From assembly GCA_015068135.1 (NCBI GenBank), contig SVLB01000001.1, positions 44,284 to 108,283 of the forward strand: a DNA stretch of 64,000 nucleotides, written 5' to 3'. The stretch is from Oscillospiraceae bacterium. GTDB lineage: Bacteria; Bacillota; Clostridia; Oscillospirales; Oscillospiraceae. Shown here piece by piece: positions 24,499 through 64,000 of this stretch (position 1 is its first letter; the number at the start of each line of letters is the position of its first letter). The notes under the pieces are model-generated. The model searched no databases and was not told where the DNA came from. It worked only from the letters and a program-made list of their open reading frames with translations. Made by a program: the position numbers and the translations under genes.

Positions 24499-24503
24499 AT
24501 GGG

Positions 24504-24880
24504 TATTCGTGGGTGATGGGACTCGAAAGGGCGGCCCATCCGAAGGATGGGCAAAAATTGAGAGCTGGCGAGCAATTTTTAGCCCGTGGGAGAGTCCCAT
24601 AGGAAAAGGAGTATTCGTGGGTGATGGGACTCGAAAGGGCGACCCATCCGTAGGATGGGTAAAAATTGAGAGCTGGCGAGCAATTTTTAGCCCGTGGGAG
24701 AGTCCCATAGGAAAAGGAGTATTCGTGGGTGATGGGACTCGAAAGGGCGGCCCATCCGTAGGATGGGTAAAAATTGAGAGCTGGCGAGCAATTTTTAGCC
24801 CGTGGGAGAGTCCCATAGGAAAAGGAGTATTTGTGGGTGATGGGACTCGAAAGGGCGGCCCATCCGAAGGATGGGTAAAA
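24504..24880 (+). repeat. 108-bp tandem repeat carrying an inverted tRNA-His 3' end
   Basis: Units start at 24504, 24612, 24720 and 24828, an exact 108-base period, with the fourth unit cut short. Every unit contains GTGGGTGATGGGACTCGAA, the exact complement of bases 24431-24449 of tRNA-His. Within a complete unit ATGGGACTC pairs with GAGTCCCAT near the end, enclosing two hairpins (CCATCC/GGATGG and AAAAATTG/CAATTTTT). ORFs on both strands (36-residue repeats) arise because 108 is a multiple of three and are probably not genes. Confidence 0.92.
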
Positions 24881-24951
24881 ATGGTTCTATAACCATTGTT
24901 TTCCCGGCAAAGCTATGCTATACTAATGTAAACATAGAAAGGCGGCATATT

Positions 24952-43417: not shown

Positions 43418-43446
43418 GAAGGGCCTGTGCAACCGCACAGGCCCTT
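43418..43446 (+). terminator. First copy of the duplicated terminator hairpin
   Basis: AAGGGCCTGTGC pairs with GCACAGGCCCTT. It has no T-tract because the 255-bp element begins right after it. A second, nearly identical hairpin with a T-tract lies at 43702-43737. Confidence 0.75.
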
Positions 43447-43701
43447 CAGCTTGTCAAAAAACGCTTTTTTGACAAGCTGGCAGAGGTCAAAGGAGCCGCA
43501 AAGACAAGCAAACCGGACTCGTCGGCGTACATAGGTACGGTAGAGTCCGGTTTGCGCAGTAAGTCAAAATGTCTTGCGCAGCAAGCCTTTCAGGGGCTTA
43601 AGAAGAACGGATTGCCACGGCCACAAGTGGCCTCGCAATGACGCTGCTTTCTTTTTCCATTCACACATATTTTGACGGTTTGCGGCTTCTTTGACACTCT
43701 G
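43447..43701 (+). mobile_element. 255-bp non-coding element, copy A
   Basis: Copy A matches the complement of 63523-63777 over all 255 bases with few differences. It begins with a hairpin (CAGCTTGTCAAAAAA and its complement, 43447-43480). Then come inverted ends: CAGAGGTCAAAGGAGCCGC at 43481 and, as the complement of 43701 backwards, CAGAGTGTCAAAGAAGCCGC. Inner hairpins include GCAAACCGGACTC/GAGTCCGGTTTGC. It encodes no convincing protein. It is flanked by two copies of the local terminator hairpin. Confidence 0.85.
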
Positions 43702-43737
43702 AAGGACCTGTGCAAACCGCACAGGTCCTTGTTTTTT
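43702..43737 (+). terminator. Second copy of the duplicated terminator hairpin, with T-tract
   Basis: AAGGACCTGTGC pairs with GCACAGGTCCTT and runs into GTTTTTT. Compared with the copy at 43418, one G-C pair has become A-T on both strands of the stem, so pairing is kept. Confidence 0.8.
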
Positions 43738-46700
43738 AGTTTTCTTCCTCGGTGACAGCGGTCACGATATCGTAGAGCTTGGTGAAGCCCCAAGCATTCA
43801 GTTTGTCGGCAATGCTGCTGATCATGGTCTTCAAGCCTTCCTGCTGGCCCTGGGTGAAGGGCTCGCTCTGTTCATTGAGCTTGTGCAGAATGCTCTTGAG
43901 GCTAAACTCGTAAGAGCTGCTGGTGATCACAGTGCCGTCGGTCAAGGTCAGGGTCACGTATGCGCTGATCGTATTTTCCGCATAGGCCATGTCGTAATTG
44001 CTGATGACCAGGCTTACAGGTGTGCCGGCGTTGCCGGTGACAAAGTCCTCTCTCACACCGGAGCAGGTCTTTGCATTTTGCTGACCCTCCAGCTGCAGGG
44101 TGTAGCCAAAGGCGGCAGTCTCGCTGAGCATGCTCTTGACGATCTCGTCACCGCCGAAGATGGCCTTGTAGCCAACGCCGCTCTTGCCGGGGCGCAGGGT
44201 CACCTTGGTAATGCCCAGGTAGATCCGGTGGAAGGAGACTGCACCGGTCTCAGGATCGGTATAGGTCAGGTAACGCAGGACACTGCCCAAAGCGCCGGTA
44301 GCAGCAGTCTTGTGATGCAGTGCCACATTGCCGGACACCTCAGCGATGCTGCCGTAACCGTCGGAGCAGTCGTAGTCATTGGTGGTGCTGTCCACACCGT
44401 AGAGGGTTGCGCCCTCGGCAACAGTAACCGTACCGGTGATGCTGAAGCCGTTCAGATCCAGATACAGGTCCGTCTTGACCTCTGCGTTCTCTTCGATATT
44501 GCCCACCAGGACTACCAGGCCGTTTTCCCCTGCGGCATCCAATGCCTCCTGAAGGGAGGTGTACTGGGTATCGCCAACCTGTGCCACAGGCGTCTTGGGC
44601 TCCTCGGGCTGGGCATTGGGATTGTAGACCTTGTACAGATAGGTTGCGTCGTCATTGTTCTGAAGCTCGCAATCGGCAGCCAGGTAGGCAGCATTGACGC
44701 TCTTAACGAAGTAGCCGCCGGAGATCGCGCCGTTGAGACCTACGCCGTAGACTGCGCCGCCGGAGAAGTAACCGCCGGTAACGGAAACGGTGGAGGTGCC
44801 TACTGCATACAGAGGATAGGCAAGTACGGCTTTGGTATTGACCAGGAAGCCTCCGGACACCGTGACGTTGGAACCGGCAAGGGCATTCATGCCGTAGTTA
44901 CCGCCGGTTACCTTGCCGCCCTCCATGTTAAAGGTGGCATTTGCCCAAACCTTGACGCCTGCGGCATTGGCACCGCCGGACACATTGCCGCTGAGCATGG
45001 TAACGGAGGAGCCTGCGGTTTGGTAGATCTCAATACCGTGTCCGTTAGCCATGGCATTTTGGATCAGACCGTCGCCTTCGGCAGAGGTATCCATCAGGGT
45101 AACCACGCCGCCATCCACATACAGTGCGCCTGCACCGCCAAAGGAGCCGGTGATGGTACAGCCATTCAGATCGATGGTAATATTGCCATTGTAGACGTCC
45201 AGAGTTCCGTTGGTACCCAGCTCCATATCCTGATAGAACTTCAGGTAACCGGTGCCGGTGATCTTCTTCAGTGCGGCATTCAAAGTCGCTGCGTTGGTAC
45301 TGCTGTAATAGGTGGTAGTACCGTCAACGGTAATGCTGTAGTAAGTACCTGCAGGTACATCCGTATCGGGGGTGTCAGGCACAGAGGGAGTCGTCGGCTC
45401 GGTTTCGGGCTCAGAGGGCTCCGAAGGCTCGGAGGGCTCGGTGGATTCGGAAGGCTCGGTTTCCTCTGCGACCGTCTCCACAGTCACAAGAACGTTGCCC
45501 TCAGCGCCCACAACGCCCACATAGATGCTCTGACCAACGCTGGTGCATTCCCATTCCAGGGTGTTGGAGGTGCTGTTGGGATTATTCAGGTAGGCGGTGC
45601 TGTAGCCCCAAATGCCAATGGTAGTGCCGGCAGGGGAAGTAACGGTATACTTGCCGGCCTCTGTGGGACGGAAGCGGAAAATGGTAGCCTCGGCAGTGTC
45701 GATCATGGACACGGTGTTATCGCCAACGGCCAGCAGGGTGGTGGAGACCGCATAGGCATCCTTTACCACCTCGGGCTCAGAGGATTCCGGCTCAGAAGAC
45801 TCAGGCTCAGAAGACTCAGGCTCGGTGACCTCAGGCTCGGAAGGATCCGTTCCAGGCTCGGAAGGATCGGGCTCAGCGGTGGACAATACCACATTTACGC
45901 TGATATTGCCCTCAGCGCCCAAAACGCCCACAAAAATGCTGGGGCCAACATTGGTGCATTCCCATTCCAGGATATTGGAGGTGCTGTTGGGATTATTCAG
46001 GTAAGCGGTGCTGTAGCCCCAAATACCAATATACGTACCGGCAGGTGCGGTGATGGTATACTTACCGGTAGCAGAGGGCGTAAATTTGAAAATGGTAGCC
46101 TCAGCGGTGTCGATCATGGACACAGCGTTGTCGCCCACAGCCAGCTTAGTTGTGGAGACCGCATAGGCGTCCTTGGTAACCTCAGGCTCAGTGGGCTGTT
46201 CCGGCTCGGTGCCGCCTGCGGCCTTGAATACTGCGGTCACAGGGGTTGCGGTCAAAGCGCCGCCGGTCGTCTTGTAGACACGAATGCGGTAAGTCGTGCC
46301 TGCGGTCACCTCCGCGGTAAAGGTAGCAGCGGCAGTACCGCTGGCGGATGCCACAGTCTTCATGGAAAGACCCGCAAAGTAAACCACATCAGCGGTCCAG
46401 TTGGTGGTGCCGTCACCTACGGTGATGGTCAGGGTGCCATCCTCGGTGGGCTTGTAGGAATAGACATACTTTTCGCTGGAATCGGCGGTTACGCTTTCGT
46501 TCAAAACCACTTCGCCGTCCACGGGCTCAGAGGGAACACTGGGCTCCGTGACTTCAGGCTCAGAGGGCTCAGGCTCGGTGACCTCAGGCTCGGTGACCTC
46601 AGGCTCAGAGGTCTCAGGCTCGGTGACCTCAGGCTCAGAGGTCTCGGGCTCAGAGGGCTCAGGCTCACTGGGCTGGGGCGCTTCTGCCAGATGCATGGTG

Positions 46701-47860
46701 CGCATACAGTACATCCATACGCACTCTTCATTATAATTGCCGGACAGATGGAAGGTAAAAGTACCGGCCTGCATAGCATAGACCTGATAGAACAGCAGCA
46801 GATCCTCCGTCAGAGGATAGTTGCCGTTGGCATCCATCACAGCCTCGTACTCCAGGAGGGCATTGCCGATGTCGTACTTAAACTGATTGCCGTCCTCGTC
46901 GGTCATATAGGCGTACATAACAGGGCGATCAGATTTCAGAGCAGCGGACAGAATGATATCCTGATACTTCAGGTTTACCACCAGAATGTCCCCGTCAACA
47001 CTGTCCAGGTGGTAGTAGCCGTCACTGCCCAAAACAGCGGTATGGGTCTCCCCATAAACATCCACATAGCCGGTCCAGGTGGCATCCGCAGGCTTCTCAA
47101 AGGGCGTCAGAACCGCTTTGTTCTCATAGGGAACCACCGGAATCTCCACGACCTCGTAAGAACCGGTCTTTTCAACGGTAACGGTCACATTGCCTTCCAC
47201 ACCGGTAATGCCCAGGAAAGCAGACTGGCCCACACCGGTACAGGTCCACTCCACAGAAGTGGCTGTGCTTTTGGGATCGTTCAGGTAGGATTTCGTGTGA
47301 CCCCAAATACCGATGGTACCCGCACTGGTGGAGATGGTATACACGGCAGTTTCGGTGGGCTCAAATTCAAAAATCGTGGTATAGGCTGTATCCAGGGCTG
47401 CCACAGTGTTCTGCCCCACTGTCAGCGTGGTGGCAGAGATCGCATAGGCATCCTTTTCTACAGGTGCATCGGGTTCGTCCGCAACAAAGCGCAGAGTATA
47501 GGTAAGGGTACCGGCGGCTTCTTCCCAGTCTGCATAGCCGGTGGCAGAGAAGGTATAGGTCTCACCGGCGGTCAGAGCAAACGTATTGGTTTTTTCCGCA
47601 CCACTGCTGTTGCTCTTGGGTAACCCCAGGGTATCGCCGCCGGAGGTTAAGATCTTAAATCTCCAGCCGGGAGTACCGGAAACGGTCACGCTTAGGGTAC
47701 CGTTGGCCGCAGCGGTCCAGGTATGGGTGGCCGGCGCACTGGGGCTGGCCGCTACATTGGTACCGCTGAAAAGGACTTCTGCTTCTGTTGCAGCTGCGCC
47801 CACAGGCAGCAAAGACACTACCATCAGCACTGCCAACAGAAAACTTAAACTTCTTCTCAT
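43736..47860 (-). CDS. Large repetitive secreted protein (adhesin-like)
   Basis: This 1374-residue protein has a signal peptide (SFLLAVLMVVSLLPVGAAA) and three copies of a domain of about 100 residues near residues 137, 563 and 700, each starting KDAYA and containing TIFEF/TIFKF and IGIWG. The copies are separated by Ser/Glu/Pro/Thr-rich linkers (PSEPEVTEPE units). Residues about 850-1090 look like a right-handed beta-helix (Gly-rich turns such as VTGGYFSGG). No LPXTG, SLH or other anchor is visible at the C-terminus (LYDIVTAVTEEEN). It is probably extracellular. A GGAGGAG site and a TATAAT box lie upstream. Confidence 0.85.
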   Translation of the reverse strand: MRRSLSFLLAVLMVVSLLPVGAAATEAEVLFSGTNVAASPSAPATHTWTAAANGTLSVTVSGTPGWRFKILTSGGDTLGLPKSNSSGAEKTNTFALTAGETYTFSATGYADWEEAAGTLTYTLRFVADEPDAPVEKDAYAISATTLTVGQNTVAALDTAYTTIFEFEPTETAVYTISTSAGTIGIWGHTKSYLNDPKSTATSVEWTCTGVGQSAFLGITGVEGNVTVTVEKTGSYEVVEIPVVPYENKAVLTPFEKPADATWTGYVDVYGETHTAVLGSDGYYHLDSVDGDILVVNLKYQDIILSAALKSDRPVMYAYMTDEDGNQFKYDIGNALLEYEAVMDANGNYPLTEDLLLFYQVYAMQAGTFTFHLSGNYNEECVWMYCMRTMHLAEAPQPSEPEPSEPETSEPEVTEPETSEPEVTEPEVTEPEPSEPEVTEPSVPSEPVDGEVVLNESVTADSSEKYVYSYKPTEDGTLTITVGDGTTNWTADVVYFAGLSMKTVASASGTAAATFTAEVTAGTTYRIRVYKTTGGALTATPVTAVFKAAGGTEPEQPTEPEVTKDAYAVSTTKLAVGDNAVSMIDTAEATIFKFTPSATGKYTITAPAGTYIGIWGYSTAYLNNPNSTSNILEWECTNVGPSIFVGVLGAEGNISVNVVLSTAEPDPSEPGTDPSEPEVTEPESSEPESSEPESSEPEVVKDAYAVSTTLLAVGDNTVSMIDTAEATIFRFRPTEAGKYTVTSPAGTTIGIWGYSTAYLNNPNSTSNTLEWECTSVGQSIYVGVVGAEGNVLVTVETVAEETEPSESTEPSEPSEPSEPETEPTTPSVPDTPDTDVPAGTYYSITVDGTTTYYSSTNAATLNAALKKITGTGYLKFYQDMELGTNGTLDVYNGNITIDLNGCTITGSFGGAGALYVDGGVVTLMDTSAEGDGLIQNAMANGHGIEIYQTAGSSVTMLSGNVSGGANAAGVKVWANATFNMEGGKVTGGNYGMNALAGSNVTVSGGFLVNTKAVLAYPLYAVGTSTVSVTGGYFSGGAVYGVGLNGAISGGYFVKSVNAAYLAADCELQNNDDATYLYKVYNPNAQPEEPKTPVAQVGDTQYTSLQEALDAAGENGLVVLVGNIEENAEVKTDLYLDLNGFSITGTVTVAEGATLYGVDSTTNDYDCSDGYGSIAEVSGNVALHHKTAATGALGSVLRYLTYTDPETGAVSFHRIYLGITKVTLRPGKSGVGYKAIFGGDEIVKSMLSETAAFGYTLQLEGQQNAKTCSGVREDFVTGNAGTPVSLVISNYDMAYAENTISAYVTLTLTDGTVITSSSYEFSLKSILHKLNEQSEPFTQGQQEGLKTMISSIADKLNAWGFTKLYDIVTAVTEEEN

Positions 47861-63198: not shown

Positions 63199-63477
63199 AT
63201 GTACGAAGACAAGACTTTAGTTTGCAAAGAGTGCGGCAACGAATTCGTTTTCACTGCCGGTGAGCAGGAGTTCTACGCAGAGCGCGGCTTCCAGAACGAG
63301 CCCCAGCGCTGCAAGGCCTGCCGCGATGCTCGCAAGAACAACGCCCGCGGTCCCCGTGAATTCTTCACTGCTACCTGCGCCCGTTGCGGCGGTGAGGCCA
63401 AGGTTCCCTTCGAGCCCAAGACCGACCGTCCCGTATACTGCAGCGAGTGCTTCGCTCAGATGCGTGCTGAGGGCTAA
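63199..63477 (+). CDS. Small zinc-ribbon protein
   Basis: This 92-residue protein has an N-terminal knuckle (VCKECGNEFVFTAGEQEFY), then RCKACRDARK, CARCGGEAKVPF and YCSECFAQM, which give two zinc-ribbon sites (four Cys-x2-Cys pairs). It belongs to the CxxC zinc-binding group common in Firmicutes; the function is unknown. The consensus promoter, the ribosome site AGAGAGG and strongly biased codons (CGC, AAG, TTC) suggest high expression. Confidence 0.9.
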   Translation: MYEDKTLVCKECGNEFVFTAGEQEFYAERGFQNEPQRCKACRDARKNNARGPREFFTATCARCGGEAKVPFEPKTDRPVYCSECFAQMRAEG

Positions 63478-63487
63478 TTGCCAATAA

Positions 63488-63522
63488 GATAAACACCGCT
63501 GACTTTCGTCAGCGGTGTTTGT
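63488..63522 (+). terminator. First copy of the duplicated terminator hairpin (zinc-ribbon gene)
   Basis: AAACACCGCTGA and TCAGCGGTGTTT form a perfect stem. The T-tract is missing, since the 255-bp element begins right after it. Confidence 0.8.
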
Positions 63523-63777
63523 CAGAGTGTCAAAAAAGCCGCAAACCGTCAAAATAGGTGTGAATGGAAAAAGAAAGCAGCGTCATTGCGAGGCCACTTG
63601 TGGCCGTGGCAATCCGTTCTTCTTAAGACCCTGAAAGGCTTGCTGCGCAAGACATTTTGACTTACTGCGCAAACCGGACTCTAACGTACCTATGTACGCC
63701 GACGAGTCCGGTTTGCTTGTCTTTGCGGCTCCTTTGACCCCTGCCAGCTTGTCAAAAAAGATTTTTTTGACAAGCTG
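63523..63777 (-). mobile_element. 255-bp non-coding element, copy B (inverted)
   Basis: The complement of this segment matches 43447-43701 end to end at the same length, with scattered single-base changes. It includes the CAAGCTTGTC-type end hairpin and the core palindrome GGCCACTTGTGGCC. It is again flanked by two copies of the local terminator hairpin. Confidence 0.85.
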
Positions 63778-63816
63778 ATAAACACCGCTGACTTTCGTCA
63801 GCGCTGTTTGTTTTTT
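63778..63816 (+). terminator. Second copy of the duplicated terminator hairpin, with T-tract
   Basis: AAACACCGCTGA and TCAGCGCTGTTT, one mismatch from the first copy, run into GTTTTTT. It stands four bases before the insertion-sequence end. Confidence 0.8.
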
Positions 63817-63818
63817 AT

Positions 63819-64000
63819 GGTTCTATAATAAATGTTGGGGTCAGGCGATGAGCCTGACCCCATTGTCATAAACAAAAGTTGAGCATAGAGACAAAAAGCC
63901 TTAAAATGAAAGTACCCCTACCACATCAAAAGGAGGTCTCTATGCTCATGACAGATTATACCGCAGAATTTCTCAATTTGGAAGATGTAATTATCACAAA
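63819..64000 (+). mobile_element. Left end of an insertion sequence, ISL3-like
   Basis: GGTTCTATAATAAATGTTGG at 63819 has the GG(T/C)TCT start and AT-rich body of ISL3-family inverted repeats as I recall them. A GGGGTCAGGC/GCCTGACCCC hairpin follows, then a transposase start. The right end is outside the window, so the family is tentative. Confidence 0.55.
63942..64000 (+). CDS. Transposase N-terminus (partial, probably ISL3 family)
   Basis: An ATG at 63942 after AAAGGAGG opens a frame that runs off the window: it starts MLMTDYTAEFLNLEDVIIT. A short N-terminal helix followed by a valine/isoleucine-rich strand fits the start of ISL3 transposases, before their zinc finger. Only about 19 residues are visible. 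Confidence 0.55.
   Translation, partial: MLMTDYTAEFLNLEDVIIT

Follow-up and report, generated by a model that had tools for sequence, protein, structure and literature searches.

The 255-bp element that occurs twice in the DNA studied here is a MITE (a non-autonomous mini-transposon), and we think it very probable that it is moved in trans by a DDE transposase of the IS1182 family which recognises CAGnnTGTCAAAnAA ends, takes as its target a hairpin extruded as a cruciform, and leaves the whole hairpin duplicated around the inserted element. The preliminary description of this DNA had proposed, from two copies only, that terminators are targeted by their structure and not by their sequence. 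Strong support for this idea now comes from about 90 MITE junctions and 43 loci of IS1182-family insertion sequences (IS), each with its own hairpin, and from a duplication length that follows hairpin length as well. We also lean, with less assurance, towards the more general proposal that DNA shape is all that one clade of DDE transposases reads, and that these attack the feet of the extruded cruciform, the target hairpin dictating the length of the duplication (18 to 64 bp).

The element and its family

The window, i.e. the whole stretch of 64,000 nucleotides that was analysed (G000:C2:44284-108283), belongs to the genome (G000) of a gut bacterium, which consists of 79 contigs and is 82.6% complete. 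The two copies of the element and the sequences around them are listed in Table 1.

Table 1. Positions, in the window, of the two MITE copies, their flanking hairpins and associated features
Feature	Position	Strand	Description
First hairpin copy at copy A	43419..43446	+	AAGGGCCTGTGCAACCGCACAGGCCCTT
MITE copy A	43447..43701	-	inverted relative to copy B (97% identity); neighbouring genes convergent
Second hairpin copy at copy A	43702..43730	+	AAGGACCTGTGCAAACCGCACAGGTCCTT, then GTTTTTT
Upstream gene with the targeted terminator	63199..63477	+	92 aa, zinc-ribbon-like by CxxC pairs
Terminator hairpin, proximal duplicate (copy B)	63489..63522	+	34 bp, ATAAACACCGCTGACTTTCGTCAGCGGTGTTTGT, without T-tract
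MITE copy B	63523..63777	+	255 bp, CAGAGTGTCAAAAAAG...TTTTTTGACAAGCTG; does not code for protein; folds strongly on itself (ssDNA, z = -9.2)
Right-end hairpin of the element	63745..63777	+	two inverted IS-end-like sequences, CAGCTTGTCAAAAAA/TTTTTTGACAAGCTG
Terminator hairpin, distal duplicate (copy B)	63778..63811	+	ATAAACACCGCTGACTTTCGTCAGCGCTGTTTGT, same base as the proximal duplicate at 33/34 positions
T-tract of the original terminator	63811..63816	+	TTTTTT, retained by the distal copy only

Copy B had been described as the inverted copy of another element of the window, and its coordinates prove to be exact, with 248 of the 255 positions matching copy A. When both copies are aligned together with their flanks, it is borne out that each of them lies between duplicates of a different hairpin, that TTTTTT follows only the distal duplicate at A and B alike, and that A and B differ in orientation relative to this T-tract. 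For copy B, the duplication itself stands, but the arms given earlier were too short, the real duplication being 34 bp long with one mismatch, and the right copy of the arm reads TCAGCGCTGTTT, not TCAGCGGTGTTT. In a longer notation of its ends, copy B is CAGAGTGTCAAAAAAGCC...TTTTTTGACAAGCTG, and the 12-mer arm of its hairpin occurs three times in the window (0.03 expected). Between the two hairpins of copy A there are two differences, a compensatory pair in the stem and a single base in the loop. Judging from this layout, an intact terminator would still be available to the gene upstream of copy B on the far side of the element, as the T-tract has stayed with the distal duplicate. Just past copy B, positions 63836-64000 contain a GGGGTCAGGC...GCCTGACCCC hairpin and an ORF that is open at the contig end, which by eye resemble the start of another insertion sequence.

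A search of G000 against itself reveals about 25 copies of the element at different hairpins, with 95-100% identity, many of them at contig ends, as expected since such a repeat breaks short-read assembly. Relatives with a diverged inner sequence are present in six more genomes of the same genus (G001, G004, G008, G016, G017 and G022). The assignment to MITEs is based on the small size of the element, its lack of coding capacity and its copy number, on terminal inverted repeats (TIRs) in common with autonomous IS (CAGAGTGTCAAAnAA / CAGCTTGTCAAAAAA), its 15-nt ends being also found on the IS1182 elements L060-L063, L188 and L189, and on a target site duplication that is here a duplicated hairpin (22-39 nt in aligned pairs). 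A search for the DNA of the element in plasmids gave no match, and a scan of viral contigs for its left end found none.

Some variation within the family should be mentioned. In an inner hairpin of the element, pairing has been maintained through changes on both sides, which palindrome correction could explain as well as selection. Two loci (L013 and L014) carry a short form of 220/221 bp that stops at the inner CTCTG end, i.e. at an inner TIR (GACCTCTG); they have a left hairpin only, with neither the right-hand hairpin nor a duplication on the right. At L007 / L015 (G000:C68:16118-16593), two copies of the element stand in tandem with a common end, and the pair is flanked by one duplicated host hairpin. 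Finally, at about positions 55-110 of the element, the subfamilies of G000 and of G016/G017 differ in the REP-like unit found at one and the same inner position (GTCATTGCGAGG...GTGGCAATCC and GCCTTCTCC...GGAGAAGGTGGC, respectively), as if these had been swapped in; both units also occur elsewhere in the genus.

Hairpins at the junctions of the MITE and of its IS1182-family relatives

From G000 and the six congeneric genomes we extracted 105 end-like junctions, of which 94 were kept after 11 internal or spurious motif matches had been removed by hand. With a threshold of at least 8 pairs and a foot no more than 5 nt from the element, a hairpin adjoins the element at 92 of these 94 junctions, versus 1.1% of 1500 control positions. 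Every locus has its own hairpin, and it is the same hairpin on both sides wherever both can be read; 23 such pairs were aligned (22-39 nt), some of them being joined across contigs by the identity of their hairpins. Outside the hairpins, 61% of the junctions have T-rich DNA (4 or more T within 8 nt), versus 13% of the controls, as would be the case for terminators.

The same arrangement is found around autonomous elements. The IS1182 transposase model matched in 33 of 101 genomes of the genus, 13 of them above the curated cut-off of the model, and several of these elements end in CAGCTTGTCAAAAAAC, with exact hairpin duplications outside: 25 bp at L062 and a perfect palindrome of 64 bp at L063. 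At L059, whose ends are somewhat different, the duplicated hairpin measures 34 bp. The transposase of L062 has the domains DUF772 and DDE_Tnp_1_6; more generally, the presumed autonomous partner encodes a DDE transposase recognised by DUF772, DDE_Tnp_1_6 and NF033551, with 43% identity to ISEfa7 (annotated as IS1182-like), and its length of 1483-1753 bp, with short TIRs, agrees with the size of IS1182-family members (about 1.3-1.95 kb).

A scan of 84,980 species genomes yielded 80 IS1182 loci, including some in records titled as complete genomes (Chakrabartyella piscis CP092441 and Clostridiales bacterium CCNA10 AP018533). Once these were combined with the loci of the same genus, 43 had both element ends. 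The targeting of palindromes, reported for some IS1182 members, is evident at all 43, with hairpins at both junctions, and the hairpin is the same on both sides in 35 of them. At 30 loci with an exact direct repeat (20-41 bp), the length of this repeat is correlated with the span of the hairpin (r = 0.989), the difference being 0 nt in 22 cases and 2 nt in 8; overall, exact duplications range from 18 to 64 bp. Members from other branches of the family (ISCfr1 and elements from Sinorhizobium and Bradyrhizobium) have different ends and no hairpin-sized duplication.

The other 8 of the 43 loci are flanked by two different hairpins. In CCNA10, the left hairpin of L208 matches the right one of L226, and the left hairpin of L218 resembles the right one of L227, an exchange that recombination between IS copies explains; for the other loci among the eight, recombination is unproven. 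A comparable case in G000 is L002, one side of which pairs with L017 and the other with L027, either by recombination between copies or, equally possibly, in a chimeric assembly. At L197 and L210, the flanking hairpins have the same stems with reverse-complemented loops (GA versus TC), as though one of the two copies had been flipped, a loop inversion that the mechanism proposed below does not predict.

Within the MITE pairs, loops differ more often (12/94) than do stems (10/568; p = 7e-6, in a test on the data in which the pattern had first been seen). The pairs concerned are in G000, G016 and G017, where the loop differs about seven times oftener than the stem, and the differences in stems include compensatory pairs (copy A and L002/L027). 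Hypermutation of the loop as a part of the mechanism was considered and rejected, as the independent set of IS loci did not repeat the pattern (loops 4/144, stems 2/831), all four loop differences in that set coming from two loop inversions. The excess in the MITE pairs may reflect age together with constraint on, or correction of, the stems, which is unproven.

The preliminary description had suggested looking for a helper transposase, and this suggestion was right in kind (the IS1182 DDE family), but none was found in the assembly of this genome: searches of G000 (82.6% complete) with PF13751, NF033551 and protein sequences revealed no IS1182 transposase. None was detected either in G004, G008, G016 and G017, in which MITEs are present. 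Short-read MAGs often miss IS copies, which is in itself no evidence for a helper here. An IS1182 transposase is present in G022, and a fragment of one in G001, two genomes that carry related elements. Since the ends of the MITE and its behaviour towards the target are the same as in the IS1182 family, we think that the sequences are most naturally read as trans-mobilisation by this family, and that this is likely.

Formation of the duplicated hairpins

Target duplications normally have a fixed length, since the transposase nicks duplex DNA twice at a constant offset. Such nicking cannot produce duplications that match the hairpin and range from 18 to 64 bp. A length that varies more than threefold while tracking the hairpin almost perfectly is hard to account for unless it is the folded target that brings both points of attack together. 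In the mechanism that we propose, the target would be any strong hairpin, normally that of a transcription terminator. This hairpin would extrude as a cruciform, in which the two feet lie side by side at the four-way junction however long the arms are; the transposase would join the two 3' ends of the element to the 5' foot of the top-strand hairpin and to that of the bottom-strand hairpin; and gap filling would then copy the whole hairpin onto both sides of the element. As the feet would be brought together by the cruciform, the length of the duplication would be set by the structure of the target.

The main alternative is that the attack takes place on a hairpin in single-stranded DNA, either at the lagging strand or in the wake of RNA polymerase, and that repair then copies the hairpin across. 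We regard this as a possible but rather unlikely substrate. The outcome would be the same, transcription and supercoiling both occur at terminators, and the loop inversions hint at template switching in palindromes; however, DDE strand transfer normally occurs on a duplex target, and flanking direct repeats need both ends to be joined to opposite strands.

A second alternative would dispense with duplication altogether, the element having inserted between natural tandem terminators that were already there. The preliminary description had itself pointed out that such terminators would contradict it, and they were looked for. Tandem terminators do exist in bacteria, and the copy A hairpins differ by a compensatory pair; however, a single terminator was found at the locus of copy B in all 28 readable congeners, its hairpin lying at most 30 nt after the stop codon, with no element. 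Two of these congeners had been flagged for a partly similar arm, which proved to be a coincidental match or to belong to a second, unrelated hairpin. The flank of copy A, where the Ser-rich gene is not conserved, gave no useful orthologs when searched in the congeners.

A relative IS provides an exact empty site. On a Providencia IncC plasmid, an IS1182 copy stands between two copies of an 18-bp hairpin (AGGCGGCCTAAGCCGCCT). When its flanks are joined with one hairpin copy (259 bp), this query matches 942 plasmid records over at least 80% of its length, and among the matches listed, 12 records contain all 259 bases in one piece with 100% identity and a single hairpin; nothing was deleted by the insertion. 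Flanks of this kind are also seen on a Cetobacterium plasmid (22 bp). The single-hairpin empty sites show that one hairpin is ancestral and that the whole hairpin was duplicated by the insertion. Pre-existing tandem terminators are refuted for the locus of copy B and for the IncC plasmid and, as exact hairpin copies of 20-64 bp also surround dozens of unrelated insertions, appear very improbable in general.

The empty site on IncC plasmids, with its single hairpin and no deletion, speaks against a third alternative, in which the target hairpin is replaced and the flanking hairpins come from elsewhere. This idea has a precedent in the IS1182 family itself, where IS1272 and TnSha1 remove the stem-loop in part or entirely (PMC5678879, PMC4923244), and Wan et al. 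2017 argued that IS1272 takes a route of its own by deleting the hairpin (PMC5678879). Here, however, whole and sequence-matched hairpins are present on both sides in 35 of the 43 IS loci, and we consider replacement to be refuted for the sites examined and, overall, just as improbable as tandem terminators.

Finally, it is hardly credible that the element is a retroelement or a group IIC-type intron: such introns prefer intrinsic terminator hairpins and insert after them, but they combine a ribozyme with a reverse transcriptase, have no TIR and do not duplicate the hairpin, whereas this element has TIRs and only 255 bp, no Rfam match was obtained in a search of positions 40000-64000, none of the listed ORFs belongs to the element, no ORF of reverse transcriptase size fits inside it, and its autonomous relatives encode a DDE transposase. 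TIRs, hairpin duplication and transposase together refute this reading. A reverse transcriptase as helper, also suggested earlier, is unsupported for the same reasons (the TIRs and the lack of an Rfam intron match).

Known systems and implications

The ISfinder entry for IS1182 gives direct repeats of 0-60 bp, a range that fits hairpin-sized duplications, and curators have probably seen long direct repeats in this family. The family itself, its targeting of palindromes by some members (cited in PMC5678879, PMC4923244) and IS1182-type MITEs are already known. IS1272 and TnSha1 of Staphylococcus, like the elements described here, have an IS1182-family DDE transposase, 16-bp terminal repeats, and stem-loop targets, including terminators, without specificity for primary sequence (PMC5678879, PMC4923244); IS1272 differs in deleting or replacing the stem-loop without a target site duplication, whereas the whole stem-loop is duplicated here. 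MITEPye1 of Paracoccus yeei (with ISPye18) resembles our MITE in its ends, which match an IS1182-family IS, its intergenic location and its strong fold, but its direct repeats are only 4 bp long, a chromosome carries 1-3 copies of it, and no hairpin duplication was reported for it (PMC11578231). IS110/IS1111 and REP-targeting IS also insert into palindromic repeats, but their targets are specified by sequence or by a guide RNA and are not duplicated whole.

In the open literature searched, we found no report of whole-hairpin duplication with a length set by the hairpin. Duplication of a whole stem-loop had nevertheless been drawn by Wan et al. 2017 as the hypothetical pathway b of their Fig. 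13 (PMC5678879), and this hypothetical IS1182-type pathway now has dozens of natural examples and precise empty sites. By landing after genes and rebuilding the terminator beyond itself, an element of high copy number may stay nearly harmless. In addition, the private pair of hairpins at each site serves as a barcode that suggests the partners of contig ends in broken assemblies and exposes recombination between copies. If it is true that shape alone is read, these elements would keep a natural record of cruciform extrusion at the terminators of living bacteria, and the transposase could be addressed by any designed hairpin.

The window contains two other sets of repeats. Three near-identical copies of a 164-nt repeat (97-98% identity) lie at positions 24503-24882 with a spacing of 108 nt. 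At positions 45447-46699, repeats are present inside an ORF of 1374 aa on the minus strand (43736-47860), and consist of 15-nt units coding for PSEPE/VTEPE-like stretches and of a 300-nt duplication.
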